Source: Phycisphaerales bacterium (GTDB taxonomy: Bacteria; Planctomycetota; Phycisphaerae; Phycisphaerales; UBA1924). From it: a stretch of 64,000 nt of DNA. The notes below the pieces were generated by a model. That model ran no database searches. It worked only from the letters and a program-made list of their open reading frames with translations, and was not told the origin of the DNA. Position 1 is the stretch's first letter. Every line of letters begins with the position of its first letter. The stretch covers positions 1-64,000 of the forward strand of contig JAVJVK010000011.1 in NCBI GenBank assembly GCA_040221175.1, in the 5' to 3' direction. Below are positions 30,447-43,314 of the stretch, piece by piece. The translations under genes and the position numbers were made by a program.

Positions 30447-31889
30447 TCAGACCGACCGTGCCGGCGTGATGATCCCCCGGCACTCGCCAAACCCGATGCG
30501 CCGGAAGCCCTCGCGCTCGCAATAGCCCTTGATGATGACCTCGTCGCCGTCGGCCAGGAACTTGCGCTCTTCGCCGGTGGGCAGGGTGATGGGCGTGCGA
30601 TCCGTTCCCGGCACGAGCTTGGGCGGGCTGGCGAACGCGTCGCCGTTCCAGGTGAGCTCGAGCAGGCAGCCGCGGCTGTCGCGCGTCTTGCCGCTGACCG
30701 TTCCTGATGCAAGCAAGTCGCCGGGCCGCATGTTGCAGCCGTTGCTGCTGTGGTGGGTCAGCATCTGGGCGAGCGTCCAGTACATGTCCTTGAAGTTGCC
30801 GCGGCTGATGCGCATCGGCTCCATCTTCTTCTGCCGCATCTGCTCGCTGGAGAGGTAGACCTCCAAGGTAATATCGAAGCCGCCCGCGGCGCTGTTGGCG
30901 TCGCTCATCAGGTACGGCAGCGGCGACGGATCGCCGGCGTCCCGCTGGAACGCGGGCACCCGGAAGGGCGCGAGCGCCTCCATCGTCACGATGTAGGGGC
31001 TGACGGTTGTCGCGAAGCTCTTGGCCAGGAAGGGGCCCAGCGGCTGGTACTCCCACTTCTGCAGGTCGCGGGCCGACCAGTCATTGACCAGGCACAAGCC
31101 CAGCATGTGCTTCTCGGCGTCGGCGATGTCGATGGCGTCACCAAGCTCGTTGCCACGCCCGACGACCACGCCCATCTCCAGCTCGTAGTCGAGCAACTTA
31201 CAAGGCCCGAAGCTGGGCGCGCCGCCGTCCTCGGCGGGCGCCTGCTGGCCCACGGGCCGGCGCACGTCCGTGCCGCTGGGCACGATGCTCGACGCCCGGC
31301 CGTGGTAGCCGATGGGGATGTGCTTGTAGTTGGGCAGCAGCGGGTTGTCGGGCCGGAACATGCTGCCAACGCTGGTGGCGTGGTAGAGGGAGGCGTAGAA
31401 GTCGGTGTAGTCGCCGATGTCAGGCACAGGACTAGCGAACGTGCACTGCGAGAGCGGCACCAGAAAGTTGTTCAGGCCTGCCTTGTCCGCGGCCGCTTTG
31501 TTCTCAACCCGAAGCAGGCGAGAAAGAAAGCGGCGGAGATCGGGTTGGTCGAAGAGCAGCCACCACGCATGCCAAGACGGAAAGTGTGCCCATCCGTCCC
31601 GGCCATGCTGGATCAACTCCTCAAGTGATTCTGATTCAGCGTCGGTGACGATCTCCTCGATCACGTCGTTGGCGAACAGCTTCTCGAGTCGAAGAAACTG
31701 GTCTCCGATCGCAACGCCGACCTGATTCGCGAAGCCTTCGCCGGAGAGCACGCACAGCGGCAGATTCTGGATCGGAAAGTCCGTCCCCGGGTCGTTGGCG
31801 CTCTCGACCCAGCTCTGAAGCTTCGAGTCGTGGGTCTCGTCGATGGGGTAGTGGGGGTGGGGGTGGTAGGCGTCTGTAGGGTTACTCAT
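30447..31889 (-). CDS. fahA: Fumarylacetoacetase
   Basis: 480 residues. The N-terminal beta domain is followed by the FAH fold: DFYASLYHATSVGSMFRP, IPIGYHGRASSIV and LDYELEMGVVVGRGN (metal-binding Glu residues), then NDWSARDLQKWEYQPLGPF. It hydrolyses fumarylacetoacetate to fumarate and acetoacetate, the last step of tyrosine/homogentisate breakdown. No hmgA or hpd is adjacent. The ATG at 31889 is fixed by GGGAGG four bases upstream. The same frame stays open another 102 codons through 21-bp array B. Confidence 0.95.
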   Translation of the reverse strand: MSNPTDAYHPHPHYPIDETHDSKLQSWVESANDPGTDFPIQNLPLCVLSGEGFANQVGVAIGDQFLRLEKLFANDVIEEIVTDAESESLEELIQHGRDGWAHFPSWHAWWLLFDQPDLRRFLSRLLRVENKAAADKAGLNNFLVPLSQCTFASPVPDIGDYTDFYASLYHATSVGSMFRPDNPLLPNYKHIPIGYHGRASSIVPSGTDVRRPVGQQAPAEDGGAPSFGPCKLLDYELEMGVVVGRGNELGDAIDIADAEKHMLGLCLVNDWSARDLQKWEYQPLGPFLAKSFATTVSPYIVTMEALAPFRVPAFQRDAGDPSPLPYLMSDANSAAGGFDITLEVYLSSEQMRQKKMEPMRISRGNFKDMYWTLAQMLTHHSSNGCNMRPGDLLASGTVSGKTRDSRGCLLELTWNGDAFASPPKLVPGTDRTPITLPTGEERKFLADGDEVIIKGYCEREGFRRIGFGECRGIITPARSV

Positions 31890-31893
31890 GGAT

Positions 31894-31899
31894 CCTCCC
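31894..31899 (-). promoter_or_regulatory. Shine-Dalgarno deciding the fahA start
   Basis: GGGAGG on the minus strand, four bases before the ATG at 31889. It argues against use of any upstream start in the open frame that continues to 32195. Confidence 0.75.
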
Positions 31900-31900
31900 G

Positions 31901-31936
31901 GGAATTGGGCTGGGAATTGGGCTGGGAATCGGGCTG
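31901..31936. repeat. Three 12-bp direct repeats
   Basis: GGAATTGGGCTG at 31901 and 31913, and GGAATCGGGCTG at 31925, in the fahA leader just upstream of its Shine-Dalgarno. Confidence 0.85.
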
Positions 31937-31997
31937 GGGGGCGGGCTGCATGCGTCTCGGGGCACTGTAGAGCCGGGCGCGCAGGCGGGATCCGTAG

Positions 31998-32165
31998 GCA
32001 GCGATCGGCAATGTCCGGGCAGCAATCGATGATGACTGGGCAGCGATCGGCAATGTCCGGGCAGCAATCGACGATGACTGGGCAGCGATCGGCGATGTCC
32101 GGGCAGCAATCGACGATGTCCGGGCAGCGATCGGCGATGTCCGGGTAGCAATCGGCGATCGCTGC
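31998..32165. repeat. 21-bp tandem array B
   Basis: Eight units begin at 31998, 32019, 32040, 32061, 32082, 32103, 32124 and 32145 (the last diverged). All begin GCAGC or GTAGC, then (G/A)ATCG. Two unit types alternate, GCAGCGATCGGC... and GCAGCAATCGAx..., giving a 42-bp higher-order period. The array lies in the 519-bp gap between divergent fahA and the ClC gene. The minus strand reads heptads of the form CCPDIAD / RCPVIVD in frame with fahA. From 32166 to 32408 the gap is very GC-rich, with a TATATT near the ClC start. Confidence 0.9.
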
Positions 32166-32392
32166 CCGCCCGACCGGGCTCCGACCCCTCGTCACGGGCC
32201 GTCAGACGCGAAAACCCGCCCAGAACCCGCCCACAACGCACGCGAACCCGACCAAACCGCGGCCGCGCCGCCCGCGCCCCGCGTCGGAGGCATTCGCGAG
32301 CCGGCGGAAACCGGCGGCCGCCGGCCCGGCGTGGCTGCGGCGTGGCGGGCGAACCTGGGCATCGTCCGCCCGACGCGGGACGCCCGCCCCGC

Positions 32393-32398
32393 TATATT
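32393..32398 (+). promoter_or_regulatory. Candidate -10 element of the ClC gene
   Basis: TATATT in an otherwise very GC-rich stretch, ending 10 bases before the ATG at 32409; implies a leader of only a few bases. No -35 seen. Confidence 0.4.
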
Positions 32399-32408
32399 GC
32401 CGGTCCCC

Positions 32409-34328
32409 ATGGCCGACTCCGCCGCCAGATCGGGCTTCCTGCCGACGCTCGCCAAGCGCCTGCGCCTGAAGCGCGAGTGGTACGTGGTGGCCCTGGGGGC
32501 CATCGTCGGCACGCTCACCGGCCTGGGCACGCTGGGCTTCGCCGAGGCGCTGCACTACGCCGAGAAGCAGGTCAGGAGCGCCCAGATCGCCCTGCCCGTG
32601 TGGCTGCTGTTCCTGGGCCCGGTCGTGGGCATGGCCCTCACGGGCATCCTGGTCCGCCTGTTCGCCAGCGACGCCAGGGGCCACGGCGTGCCCCAGGTGA
32701 TGCGGGCGCTGATCGAAAAAGGCGGGCATATCCCTGCGCGCGTGGGCCTGACCAAGGTCGCCGCCAGCATCGCGACGGTCGCCAGCGGCGGGTCGGCGGG
32801 CACCGAGGGGCCCATCGTGCAGATCGGCGCGACGGCCGGCTCGGTCGTCGGCCAGCGGCTGGGCGTGCCGCGCGAGCAGATGATGACGCTGGTGGGCTGC
32901 GGCGCGGCGGCGGGCATCAGCGCCATCTTCAATGCGCCCATCGCGGGGGTCTTCTTCGCGCTGGAGATCCTGCTGCGCGACTTCTCGCTGAAGACCTTCA
33001 CGCCCATCGTCGTCTCGGCCGTGTTCGCCGCGGCCGTCACGCACATGGCCCAGGGCCAGAACGAGGCGATCTTCACCGTCACCACGTTCGAGAACCTGAG
33101 GTTCACCGCCCTGGAGTTTCCAAACTACATCGTGCTGGGGCTGCTCTGCGGCCTGCTGGCGGTGGGCTTCAACCGCAGCCTGCACTGGTGCGAGGACTTC
33201 TACGGCAAGCTCAAGCTGCACTGGCTGGTGGCGCCCATTACCGGCGGGCTGGTCCTGGGCGCCCTGGGCATCGCCTGGATCCTGATGGTCCGCGCCGCCG
33301 GCGGCGATCCGGCCAGCCAGGCCACCGACGTGCCGAGCTTCTTCGGCAACGGCTACGAGACCATCCGCTGGCTGCTCGAGCCCACCAGCTATGGCGCGGC
33401 GCCCGAGATCATGGAGGCGGCCGCGCAGGCCGGAGAGCACGCGTCTGGTCACGCGACGGGCCACGACGCCCACGCCAGCGCCGCCCTGCCCATGGCCATC
33501 TGGCTCATCGCCCTGCTGGTGGTCTTCAAGGCCGCGGCGACCAGCGTGACGCTCTCCAGCGGCGGCTCGGGCGGCGTGTTCGCCCCCAGCCTTTTCATCG
33601 GGGCCGCGGGCGGGGCCGCCCTGGGCGTGGCGCTCGATCGCGTGGGCCTCCTGCCCGCCGAGAGCAGCCCGGCCGCGTACGCCCTTGTTGGCATGGCCGC
33701 CGTGGTCGCCGGCAGCACGCACGGCCCCCTGACGGCGATCCTGATGCTCTTCGAGCTCACGCGCGACCCCTACGTGCTGCTGCCCATCATGCTGGCGGCC
33801 GTCGTCGCGACGCTGCTCAGCCAGGCCATCGACCGCGACAACATCTACACCCACCCGCTCCGGCGGGCGGGCCTGCGGATCGGCCGCACGGGCGACCTGG
33901 CCATCCTCCGCAAGATTTCGGCGACGAGCGTGCCGGTGGTGCCCCTGCCGGGCGAGCCGGTGTACGCCAGCGACCCATTGAGCAAGCTCATCACCCTGCA
34001 CGCCAACAGCCGCGTGCCGGACTTCGTCGTCGTCGACAGCCAGGGCGACCACATCGGCATGGTGACCGGCCGAGACATGCGCACCGCGCTGATCGATCGC
34101 GAGGCCATCCCGCTGCTGCTGGTGGCCGAGCTCATGCGCAGCGATCTGCCCGCCGTGGTGACCACCGACACGCTGGACGTCGTGCTCGAACGCTTCGAGG
34201 ACGACGACATCGCCAGCCTGCCGCTGCTGGGCCCGCCCGACATCACGGGCCATCGCCGCCCCCTGGGCCTGGTCACCCGCGCGGCCGTGCTGGAACGCTA
34301 CCGCCGGGCGCTCGAGGAAGAGCTCTAA
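32409..34328 (+). CDS. ClC-family chloride channel/transporter with CBS domains
   Basis: 639 residues. The anion-path motifs are visible: RGHGVPQ (for GSGIP), SGGSAGTEGPIVQIGA with the gating glutamate E133, GGSGGVFAPSLFIGAAGG and the following helices. From about residue 500 the cytoplasmic part holds two CBS modules (VYASDPLSKLITLHANSRVPDFV and VVTTDTLDVVLERF). The retained gating glutamate is compatible with either channel or Cl-/H+ exchange. No Shine-Dalgarno. There is a His/Ala-rich loop near 335-360 (HASGHATGHDAHAS), which is unusual and might bind metal (inference). Confidence 0.95.
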   Translation: MADSAARSGFLPTLAKRLRLKREWYVVALGAIVGTLTGLGTLGFAEALHYAEKQVRSAQIALPVWLLFLGPVVGMALTGILVRLFASDARGHGVPQVMRALIEKGGHIPARVGLTKVAASIATVASGGSAGTEGPIVQIGATAGSVVGQRLGVPREQMMTLVGCGAAAGISAIFNAPIAGVFFALEILLRDFSLKTFTPIVVSAVFAAAVTHMAQGQNEAIFTVTTFENLRFTALEFPNYIVLGLLCGLLAVGFNRSLHWCEDFYGKLKLHWLVAPITGGLVLGALGIAWILMVRAAGGDPASQATDVPSFFGNGYETIRWLLEPTSYGAAPEIMEAAAQAGEHASGHATGHDAHASAALPMAIWLIALLVVFKAAATSVTLSSGGSGGVFAPSLFIGAAGGAALGVALDRVGLLPAESSPAAYALVGMAAVVAGSTHGPLTAILMLFELTRDPYVLLPIMLAAVVATLLSQAIDRDNIYTHPLRRAGLRIGRTGDLAILRKISATSVPVVPLPGEPVYASDPLSKLITLHANSRVPDFVVVDSQGDHIGMVTGRDMRTALIDREAIPLLLVAELMRSDLPAVVTTDTLDVVLERFEDDDIASLPLLGPPDITGHRRPLGLVTRAAVLERYRRALEEEL

Positions 34329-35063: not shown

Positions 35064-36083
35064 TTACTCGCAGCCGGCGTCGAAGGCGTTCTGGAAGCAC
35101 AGGAAGTCAAAGAGCGTCAGCGAGCCATCGGCGTCGCAGTCGGCGATCAGGTCGCCGCTGTCAAATGCGTTCTGGAAGGCCAGGAAGTCGAAGATGGTCA
35201 GTTGCCCGTCTTCATCGAAATCGGGGTAGCAGGGCTCGGCTTCGCCCAGCATCATGATGAACTGGCCGTTGCCGTCGAGCACGTTGATGGTCGAACCAGA
35301 CGCCGGATCAGTGACGTTCACGCCATCGCCGTTCGTCCACATGATGCTGCCATCGCCCAACTCCCAGCCGGCCCGGGCGCCCGAGTCCTGGGTGCCGGAT
35401 ATGACGTCCAGCAGCCCACCGTCGACGCTGATCTCCCAGATGCCCGATGGCGAGCTGAAGGCGCCCACGAGCACCGTGCCGGCGCTGGTCTCGCTCGTTT
35501 GCTGAAGGAAGTTGAGCTGGCCGGGGGCGAAGAACTGGCCAAGGAAGTTGCCAGCCTCGTCGTACCGGTCGAGCTGATCATCGATGGTGACGAGAACCTC
35601 TCCGTTGTAGGGCAGCGCGAACCATGGCGACGCGCCCAGGGGGATGTTGCCGATGATCGACGCCGTGCTGGGATCGATGCGAACGATGGCGTTGCCCGGC
35701 GCGTCGTTGTTGGTGCCAGCGTTGAACACCCAGACCTCATCGCCGATCACGTTCACGCCGCGTACGTTGTCGAGCCCACCGCCGGGCACCTGTCCGCCGA
35801 TGGAGTCGATGTAGTCGCCGTCCAGCGTGAAACGATCCACGCGGTCGCGGATCTGGTCGCTCACCCAGATCTCGTCGCCGACCTGCGCGATCCCCTTGGG
35901 CGTGCCTGCATCAAGGGGCACCAGGTCGATAAACACCGGATCGATCAGGCTCCCGTCAAACGGGTCGAAGGCCGCGATGGTGTCGTTGGTCGAATCGGGA
36001 ACCAGGAGCACCGCATCCTGAGCGAGGCACGAGGCGGCCAGGACCGGAACGGCCAGGCCCGCAAGAAAAGTCCGAATAACCAT
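35064..36083 (-). CDS. Secreted beta-propeller-like protein with dockerin-like C-terminus
   Basis: 339 residues. Signal peptide MVIRTFLAGLAVPVLAASCLA. The body is a run of repeated blades (GTPKGIAQVGDEIWVSDQ, NVRGVNVIGDEVWVFN, WFALPYNGEVLVTID) like NHL/SMP-type or lactonase-type propellers. The last 55 residues form two copies of D-x-D-x-DG-xLTxFDFLxFQNAFD, ending AGCE, the same module as in the protease at 5648-6985. Probably exported and Ca-dependent in the C-terminal part; ligand unknown. GGAGA lies 7 bases before the ATG. Confidence 0.87.
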   Translation of the reverse strand: MVIRTFLAGLAVPVLAASCLAQDAVLLVPDSTNDTIAAFDPFDGSLIDPVFIDLVPLDAGTPKGIAQVGDEIWVSDQIRDRVDRFTLDGDYIDSIGGQVPGGGLDNVRGVNVIGDEVWVFNAGTNNDAPGNAIVRIDPSTASIIGNIPLGASPWFALPYNGEVLVTIDDQLDRYDEAGNFLGQFFAPGQLNFLQQTSETSAGTVLVGAFSSPSGIWEISVDGGLLDVISGTQDSGARAGWELGDGSIMWTNGDGVNVTDPASGSTINVLDGNGQFIMMLGEAEPCYPDFDEDGQLTIFDFLAFQNAFDSGDLIADCDADGSLTLFDFLCFQNAFDAGCE

Positions 36084-41426: not shown

Positions 41427-41657
41427 CGTGCGGGCCGGATTCGCGTCCATGCCCGCCGCGTTCGGCTCCGCAGCCGCGGACCTCGGTTCGCTGCCCGCCG
41501 ATTTCGCGTGCATGCCTGCTGGACGTTCCTCCGTGCCCGGCGGGATCGTCCTTGAGCCCGCGGCCCCTTCCTCCGTGCCCGGGGACCTCGTCTCCGTGCC
41601 CGCCGGGATCACTCCCGTGCCCGCCCAGGCCATGTCCGTGCCCGCTGGGATCAACTC
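41427..41657. repeat. 21-bp tandem array C
   Basis: Eleven contiguous 21-bp units begin at 41427 and recur every 21 bases to 41637. Typical units read CGTGCCCGCCGGGATC then CTCC or CAACTC. The array lies in the 572-bp gap between the divergent zinc-ribbon gene (start 41362) and the 41935 gene. Heptads are open on both strands (plus: xxSVPAG; minus: PAGTExx). From 41658 to 41934 I see only GC-rich sequence and a TAGCAT near the right-hand gene. Confidence 0.9.
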
Positions 41658-41921
41658 GGCGTCGCCGTTCTCGGACATGCGCCCACGCTCGACGCCCCGG
41701 CGCAGCGCCCCTGAAGACAGGGACGCTGCGCCGGGGCTCGACCAAAGGTAGTTTTCTTGAGGCGCTCGCGTTGCTCGCTTGCGGGCTGGCGCCCGGGCTC
41801 TGGCAGGCCTCGCCTCCGCATGCGCTTTCGCTCGAAGACTCGCTCGGCGGATGCTTCGGCGTCGGATCGGGTGGGTATGGCCGAGCGTGCTCCTTCGCTC
41901 CGTCGCTTCTCCAGCTCCCCC

Positions 41922-41934: not shown

Positions 41935-43314
41935 ATGCACCGATGCCTGCTCAACCCCGCCCTCGAGCGTGTCCGCGTCAACGGCTTCGCCTTTCCTTTG
42001 GGCGTCTACCCGGTCGAGCCCATCGCGCCCACGAGCGGCTACACGGTCGACTTCGAGCCGGCCGACGGCGACGAGGAGTGGGAGGAGTGGCCCGACCGCT
42101 ACGTCTACGAGATCCTGGTGTCGGCCGAGCGCCTGAAGCCCTTGTGCTCGGCGCTGCTGAGCCTCTTGCCCGGGCGGATCTATCCGATCCTGGACGTGCT
42201 GGGGAACGACGCCTTCAGGGAGATCGATCCCTACATCGCCTACGAGCTGGTGGGCGTCGAGAGCCTGTACGACGGGCTGCGGTGGTACGAGCCGTTCCTC
42301 TTTGAGGATGGCCTGTGCGGCTTCGGGGCCATGAGCGAGGAGCCGTTCATGTACCTGTTCCTCGACGAGCACAAGGTGCTGACCGTGCGCGTGGAGACCA
42401 GCGAGAAGGAACGGGTCGACCGGCTGCTGGCGGCCTTCGAGCTGCCCAACCTGGGCGGGGTCGCCGAGCACGGCCCGGGCCGGCCACGCCGCCAGGGCGA
42501 CCAGCCGCCGGTGGAGGTCATGGCCGCCGACGCGGTGAGCCACGAGCACCGCAGCGTGCTCCTGACCCCCGACGACCGCCCCGAGCTGCCCGGGCCCGAG
42601 GAGGTCGCCGAGGCCCTGGTGGACCTGTGGGGCATGACGCTGAACATCGACGTGGAGCGCAACCTGGACGACGACGGCCGCGAGCTGGGCGTCACCGGCT
42701 GGCGGTGCCTGGTCCGGGTCGACCCGCCCATGCCGGCCGAGGGCGATCAGACGGCCGCCGCCCGGAAGGCCAGCGCCGAAGGCGGGGGCGAAGGCGAGGT
42801 TGAAGGCAAAGGCGGGGGTGATCGTGGGGGTGGCCGCGCCGATCAGGCCGGCCCGCGCGTGCGGTACGCCGAGGTCTTGCTGGCCGCCCGCTGCTGGCGC
42901 GAGGCCGAGGACCTGGCCGTGCAGGCGGTGGAGAAGCTGCCCGAGGCGCCCCGGGGCGTGTCGGTGGCCGACGGCTTCGGTCCGCGGCTGATCTCGGCCG
43001 ATCGCCTGTGGCGGCGCGAGCTCGCGTCGTTCCTGTCGGCGCCCGCCGGACGCAGTGGGGGTGGTGGGGGTGGTGGGGGCGAGCCGTCGCCGCCCGAGGC
43101 CCACCTGGCGCGGTCGAGCGAGCCGGCGCCGCTGGTGACACCCCCGCCCGAACACCAACCATCGGCCGGCGCCTCGCCGGCGGGCGGCCAGCGGGGCCAG
43201 GACGCGTTCGAAGACGACGCCTCCAGCGAGCCGCCCGAGATCGCCCGGCTTCTGGACGAAGCGCTGGCCAATGACGCCGCCGGACGGATCCTCGCCAGCC
43301 GCTGGCTCGAATAG
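41935..43314 (+). CDS. Hypothetical protein with Gly-rich linkers
   Basis: 459 residues, cytoplasmic by composition. The first 190 residues are a compact acidic domain with many aromatic residues (WEEWPDRYVYEILV, LRWYEPFLFEDG). A middle domain near 215-265 follows, then a Gly/Glu/Lys low-complexity linker, a helical TPR-like stretch (VLLAARCWREAEDLAVQAVEKLP), a polyglycine run and a Pro-rich tail. I do not recognise a family. The linkers match expanded GGT/GGG runs in DNA. The frame is open to 41779, but the ATG has TAGCAT 7 bases upstream. Confidence 0.75.
   Translation: MHRCLLNPALERVRVNGFAFPLGVYPVEPIAPTSGYTVDFEPADGDEEWEEWPDRYVYEILVSAERLKPLCSALLSLLPGRIYPILDVLGNDAFREIDPYIAYELVGVESLYDGLRWYEPFLFEDGLCGFGAMSEEPFMYLFLDEHKVLTVRVETSEKERVDRLLAAFELPNLGGVAEHGPGRPRRQGDQPPVEVMAADAVSHEHRSVLLTPDDRPELPGPEEVAEALVDLWGMTLNIDVERNLDDDGRELGVTGWRCLVRVDPPMPAEGDQTAAARKASAEGGGEGEVEGKGGGDRGGGRADQAGPRVRYAEVLLAARCWREAEDLAVQAVEKLPEAPRGVSVADGFGPRLISADRLWRRELASFLSAPAGRSGGGGGGGGEPSPPEAHLARSSEPAPLVTPPPEHQPSAGASPAGGQRGQDAFEDDASSEPPEIARLLDEALANDAAGRILASRWLE

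Follow-up and report, generated by a model that had tools for sequence, protein, structure and literature searches.

Upstream of the fumarylacetoacetase gene fahA lies a tandem array, here called array B, which is one locus of a class present in most of the genus members examined. The units of this class are mostly specific to their locus and repeat with a common step of 21 bp, and we hold with high confidence that the class is non-coding. The fuller reading that we favour, tentatively and at slightly less than an even chance, is that the arrays form a non-coding satellite whose 21-bp step is held by a protein ruler and which provides a phased spacer at fahA. The window (the whole stretch of 64,000 nucleotides that was analysed) comes from a genome of 3.44 Mb, designated G000; six further members of the genus are designated G001 to G006. 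The features of the window that matter here are as follows.

1822-2012, no strand assigned: second 21-bp array in the window, with another unit, of the GCTCCTGAGCACCGGTGCTGC type; dyad p=0.007
30447-31889, minus strand: fahA, fumarylacetoacetase, 480 aa, ATG at 31887-31889; Pfam PF01557 (9.4e-36) and PF09298 (1.3e-6)
31894-31898, minus strand: Shine-Dalgarno sequence GGAGG of fahA, read from the sequence; GGAGG or GGAGC alike in relatives
31900-31938, no strand assigned: 12-bp tandem repeat GGGAATTGGGCT, 3.2 copies (TRF), between the -10-like element and the Shine-Dalgarno sequence
31964-31969, minus strand: -10-like element TACAGT of the presumed fahA promoter, the single TANMNT within 160 nt upstream
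31986-32170, no strand assigned: array B, alternating A and B units of 21 bp, eight in all, with a 42-bp higher-order period and degenerate ends; TRF core 31997-32159
32393-32398, plus strand: -10-like element TATATT, in the presumed promoter of the divergent CLC-type channel gene, read from the sequence
32409-34328, plus strand: voltage-gated CLC channel family protein with CBS domain, ATG at 32409; PF00654 (6.5e-93) and PF00571 (1.1e-8)
41427-41663, no strand assigned: third 21-bp array in the window, with another unit, of the CGTGCCCGCCGGGATCACTCC type; dyad p=0.65, not significant

Array B is built from two alternating units. TRF describes its core as 7.8 copies of 21 bp with 80% matches or, better, as 3.9 copies of 42 bp with 95% matches, and identity over 31969-32181 is 0.79 at lag 42 against 0.68 at lag 21. 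Printed in register, unit A (GGCAGCGATCGGC) and unit B (GGCAGCAATCGAY) alternate over all eight units; the last B is degenerate and decays into an inverted half unit, CGATCGCTGCCC. All three views bear out the A/B alternation with a 42-bp period that a sequence-only reading of the window had described. Its proposal that dimers were duplicated is supported by the better fit of the 42-bp period and by a set of 42 arrays (34 detected automatically and eight, from fahA, corresponding gaps or named loci, included manually), in which the best match to a unit stands most often two positions from it.

The repetition is far above chance expectation, and the copies abut head to tail without spacers, as in a tandem-repeat satellite or minisatellite. 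A CRISPR is ruled out, the units adjoining every 21 bp with no unique spacers between them. Dyad symmetry in array B itself is borderline (p=0.03 in one test, 0.053 in the 42-array test). In its own genome the unit forms an array at this place only, with a few scattered single matches elsewhere at two mismatches; G003 has two places with weak similarity (70-72%), and searches of plasmid and phage collections with array B gave no match.

The array lies between two divergent -10-like elements. FahA orthologues occur in all six of the other genus members (75-79% identical), and an SD-like GGAGG or GGAGC with an ATG at the corresponding place in relatives supports the start proposed earlier, ATG 31889 with its Shine-Dalgarno sequence at 31894. 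Exactly one TANMNT is found in the 160-nt stretch upstream of fahA in 7/7 genus members, at -32 to -95. The pattern was picked after TACACT had been seen in relatives and a chance match is estimated in about one in three such stretches, which makes the agreement across seven genomes suggestive of a fahA promoter rather than proof of one. Positions of the -10-like elements were read directly, as the MAFFT alignment of the G000 fahA leader is distorted by the 12-bp repeat. That repeat lies in the presumed fahA 5' UTR and is unlike the 21-bp arrays. On the other side of the gap, the same CGCTATATTGCC is visible in G002, as the counterpart of the window's TATATT upstream of the CLC-type gene. The distance between the two divergent elements is ~36 bp in G002, which has no array, against ~420 bp in the window, where array B sits between them. 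The upstream neighbour of fahA is a dockerin-motif gene in G001, G003, G005 and G006.

The sequence-only reading had also pointed out that the fahA frame continues upstream through Cys-rich heptads for 102 codons, and had suggested that a longer FahA might begin there. The open frame itself is confirmed: the minus-strand ORF 30447-32195 encodes 582 aa from a GTG at 32195, that is, the 480-aa FahA plus 102 codons which read CCPDIAD / RCPVIVD and similar. One version of the gene caller, the second, indeed ran fahA out to 32195, while the first stopped at 31889. Such an open frame is not surprising. All three minus frames (and none of the plus frames) are stop-free through 31986-32170; 31890-32195 is open in 7.5% of 5000 mononucleotide shuffles, and 33% of repeat-preserving shuffles are open across the 102 codons. 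In G001 the upstream frame is likewise open through that genome's own array, which has another sequence and gives TGAPDTT-type heptads. The heptads are thus not kept in relatives, and the frame itself is not conserved: G003 and G005 have a stop within the array upstream of fahA, and the fahA gap of G002, G004 and G006 carries no array.

Unit-to-unit variation also lacks codon phase, both in array B (p=0.79) and in the pooled arrays (1/42 at p<=0.05, Fisher 0.90), whereas the control, tandem arrays inside predicted genes, has it in 6/31 (Fisher 0.001), several of these genes being doubtful. Pfam places both FahA domains within the 480 aa and detects no domain in the extension, and the Shine-Dalgarno sequence and the promoter-like element are both downstream of the array. 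Coding heptads were rejected on the relatives, the codon-phase tests, the promoter-like element and the openness of the other frames. Array B very probably does not code for protein, and a FahA with a Cys-heptad N-terminus is hardly credible.

The case has a practical side. A length of 21 bp is a multiple of three and a stop-free unit stays open when copied, so gene finders may extend ORFs through arrays and create false 'Cys-heptad' or 'Pro-rich' N-termini. At two other loci (L242:15013-15208 and L257:698-890), predicted genes have 21/42-bp arrays at their 5' ends, and there too, as with the extension proposed at fahA, the ORFs have probably been lengthened falsely. Genes were called here by an in-house hexamer model, and some of the labels 'intergenic' and 'coding' are wrong; the fahA start was reset by hand to 31889, and it is this choice that makes array B intergenic in the counts.

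The defining property of the class is its step. Samples of G000, G001, G002 and G005 (864, 600, 80 and 220 kb; 1.76 Mb), taken as contiguous rather than random blocks and with one genome per species, were scanned for intergenic arrays at lags 6-70, and an array with at least 30/42 matches was counted as strong. Among the strong intergenic arrays of these four genomes, 31/41 have a period of 21, 42 or 63 bp. The other ten are spread over seven period classes (34, 9, 16, 7k, 12, 15 and 8), and one of the two '7k' arrays (L234:15226-15396) also has its best lag at 21. The lag spectrum of intergenic DNA in a first G000 sample of 464 kb has the same shape: lags 21, 42, 63, 84 and 105 each cover 1305-1611 bases, and lags between 10 and 109 that are not multiples of 21 never exceed 150. 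G001 is likewise dominated by 21, over a background of up to 281 bases (lag 18), and 21 and its multiples are also dominant in the smaller samples of G002 and G005. Upstream of fahA, 21- or 42-bp arrays occur in G001, G003 and G005 with units that differ from array B. No strong array of a 21-bp multiple was found in 240 kb of G004 or in 60 kb of G006, though G006 does have one at a corresponding locus, L211.

What is kept is the length and not the sequence. The quantum holds even in arrays with unrelated 21-bp parts: four arrays (L252:8235, L122, L135 and L265:17748) have a period of 42 or 63 bp, while their similarity at lag 21 does not exceed the threshold. Periods of 31, 32, 52 and 53 bp, which phasing to whole helical turns alone would allow, are absent from the strong periods. 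An internal 7-bp periodicity was looked for in the 21-bp units and none was found, so a derivation of 21 as 3 x 7 was rejected.

The units are also biased towards two-fold symmetry. In 55% of the 42 arrays the consensus unit has at least seven of nine dyad pairs; the share is 8% among 2000 21-mers from intergenic DNA of the genome and 15% among permuted units. The dyad reaches p<=0.05 in 22/42 arrays (Fisher 9e-21, with a few arrays homologous and hence not all independent) and misses it in 20/42, including the array at 41427-41663. In a periodic sequence one dyad entails another at a distance of 10.5 bp, and the centres of symmetry therefore recur once per helical turn.

Most arrays have unrelated units, judging from an all-against-all comparison of the 42, in which a mild excess over the permuted null appears at 15-16/18 matches and three pairs reach 17-18/18. 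A few families are present at two or more loci. The first unit of the G001 array upstream of fahA has CTGCCCGGACAT in common with array B, and these two arrays may for that reason be homologous. A unit of the form GCGTGA-GGAACATG is found at two loci of G005 (fahA and 559 kb) and at 147 kb in G001. Homologous arrays with a common non-repeat edge are found in G001 (L260:11568-11724, 157 bp) and G005 (L268:10206-10466, 261 bp). Their flanking genes do not match, so they occupy different places and were rejected as an orthologous pair; the difference in length is one between two loci, and arrays of this kind may move on their own. In a further pair, a secreted dockerin-motif gene is 94% identical in DNA over 1133 bp between G001 (L125:6604-8167) and G005 (L266:17739-19387), in differing gene neighbourhoods, and the arrays upstream are related but align at just 72-82%. 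Gene and array together look like a recent horizontal exchange. The two comparisons suggest that arrays are able to move, alone or along with a gene; in the second, the array has changed faster than the gene beside it. Within G000, one array family occurs at two loci (L104:177-355 and L252:211-378), with GGAACGCTGTCCC and its inverse inside one array.

Units within an array appear to evolve together. Terminal units are less alike than interior ones (0.69 vs 0.81, p=3e-6, n=39 arrays), and these homogenised interiors, with the two-unit spacing of closest relatives, point to concerted evolution through slippage or unequal exchange in which the dimer is often the unit involved.

Arrays also recur at corresponding places. 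At three G000 loci, arrays were found in 7/17 corresponding gaps of relatives (3/6 at fahA, 3/6 at the gene at 41935 and 1/5 at the L114 gene), against a base rate of 5-10% for length-matched gaps, which gives a recurrence p between 2e-5 and 6e-4. The sample is small, being three of five loci tried (L105 was dropped for its multi-copy flanking gene family and L098 because its flanking gene had no orthologue at E<=1e-30), and the order of genes across a gap sometimes varies; among the ten gaps scored as array-less, that of G003 at the L114 gene ends with its contig after 230 nt.

We infer a protein, its binding and a function for the arrays from this combination of properties. Array B would be a non-coding intergenic satellite placed between two divergent promoter-like elements and upstream of the presumed fahA transcript. 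Arrays would change through slippage or unequal exchange, a process that would also yield the A/B dimers, and some would move between loci. A dimeric DNA-binding complex would contact the array once per unit and, because of this contact, changes that break the register would be lost and only those that keep it would persist, so that the step would stay at two turns of B-DNA, or 21 bp. The array at fahA would on this reading serve the divergent promoters as a phased scaffold or spacer and would not encode protein. The dominance of 21-bp multiples, the dyad excess, the homogenised interiors, the recurrence at corresponding gaps and the promoter-like element between array and ATG all argue for this protein ruler. 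Against it stand the weak covariation described below, the 20 arrays that miss the dyad, the lack of an orientation preference, the 10/17 corresponding gaps from which arrays are absent and the 240 kb of G004 with no strong 21-bp-multiple array. A more specific version, which we regard as unlikely, is a lineage-specific chromosomal system whose DNA-binding complex recognises length and two-fold symmetry but no particular sequence. It would polymerise along intergenic DNA once per 21 bp; arrays at many loci would keep register and dyad, and would be phase-selected nucleoid scaffolds or promoter spacers whose sequences turn over freely.

The main rival is a neutral satellite: DNA prone to hairpins would slip or switch template as it is replicated, leaving arrays with no function. 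Correction of quasi-palindromes would account for the dyads, and the machinery of replication or repair for the 21-bp step. This is a serious possibility, though appreciably short of an even chance. Presence and absence of arrays does differ between species, units mostly differ from locus to locus, and gaps that would hold promoters or terminators are not preferred: 29 array gaps divide into 8/17/4 divergent, tandem and convergent, compared with 148/295/43 of 486, which amounts to no preference in neighbour orientation. The predicted folds of the arrays are also more stable than those of column-permuted copies, with an MFE that is on average 0.08 kcal/mol per nt lower (p=9e-11, from 12 permutations of each array that did not preserve dinucleotides). 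Pairs of inverted units number 16 where 3.4 are expected, but they are confined to 7/42 arrays, and such flips are not significant when combined over all 42 (Fisher about 1.0). Functionless slippage does not by itself explain why a single quantum prevails in 31/41 strong arrays, including those with unrelated 21-bp parts, and it leaves the recurrence at the same gaps unexplained.

The folding energies would equally suit an RNA element, in which the transcribed array folds into hairpins in series, or into a single long and imperfect one, and acts in untranslated regions. We consider this improbable. Convergent, divergent and tandem gaps all carry arrays, the array at fahA is upstream of the -10-like element, and no Rfam family reached gathering score in 31700-32450, where the two matches had E=0.73 and 0.77. 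Compensatory change is weak: covariation of dyad pairs between units has a mean z of 0.65 (p=0.006), falling to 0.38 (p=0.07) with A/B parity kept, and was rejected as proof of base pairing.

Among known systems, REP and BIME elements are likewise extragenic, palindrome-like and made of alternating units, and REPs have one consensus throughout a genome. The arrays described here are for the most part unrelated in sequence; array B is found at one place, no single dispersed palindromic consensus exists among the 42 arrays, and an assignment to REP/BIME was rejected. Plasmid iterons and partition-site arrays are direct repeats of ~20-22 bp phased to two helical turns, each with one sequence and one Rep or partition protein. 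Repeat length and phasing are alike, but here many sequences are involved and they lie in ordinary chromosomal gaps. The heptamer STRR repeats of cyanobacteria are intergenic too and 7 divides 21, yet the 21-bp units have no 7-bp periodicity.

Bacterial minisatellites or VNTRs and prokaryotic satellites, as presented in the main text of a survey (PMC6749651), similarly consist of imperfect head-to-tail copies with degenerate ends. That text reads long repeats with lengths that are a multiple of three as likely coding, and the string '21 bp' is absent from it. The arrays considered here differ from the repeats it describes in being intergenic, without codon phase and with a common 21-bp quantum over mostly different sequences. 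The tandem repeats of archaeal Borgs, as described in the text of PMC9879509, are also pervasive, locus-specific and fast-evolving and likewise occur between genes. In Borgs the units are perfect copies, enriched in A and variable in length, and just 14-38% of the intergenic unit lengths are divisible by three (PMC9879509). By that description the present arrays are not Borg repeats, their units being imperfect, biased towards dyads and for the most part fixed at 21 bp. In a search of open-access literature by titles and abstracts, no bacterial intergenic arrays locked to 21 bp were recognised, which is weak evidence of their absence from the literature. We know of no bacterial group with intergenic tandem repeats of one length but not one sequence. 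If this pattern holds, it implies a physical ruler that could be identified, whether it belongs to the machinery of duplication or to a complex that binds DNA, and the arrays would offer a natural system for how satellites start and persist in compact genomes.

Some observations concern other genes and other lineages. Arrays have no link to dockerin-bearing genes, which flank 2/31 array gaps and 37/489 others. In the window, 35064-36083 encodes a protein with a duplicated dockerin-like DxDxDG..FDFL motif at its end, and motifs of this type give 59 matches in six frames of 864 kb of G000. Five other genera of the family were sampled at 80 kb each and no strong array of a 21-bp multiple was found there. 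Two possible members of the class in relatives are L047 from Phycisphaeraceae TGS_PLA3, where the dyad has p=0.06, and L084 from ACE_PLA18, where it has p=0.007. An Acidobacteriota contig has a 42-bp tandem array with a TGTGAAgTTCACA dyad (L077:7376-7738, p=0.02). Long ORFs overlap both L084 and L077, and these two arrays may therefore be coding. Arrays of 7-bp heptamers, distinct from the 21-bp class, occur in another genus of the family (L190:618-925), in the L210 upstream gap of G002 and in a Blastocatellia contig (L065:1-219).
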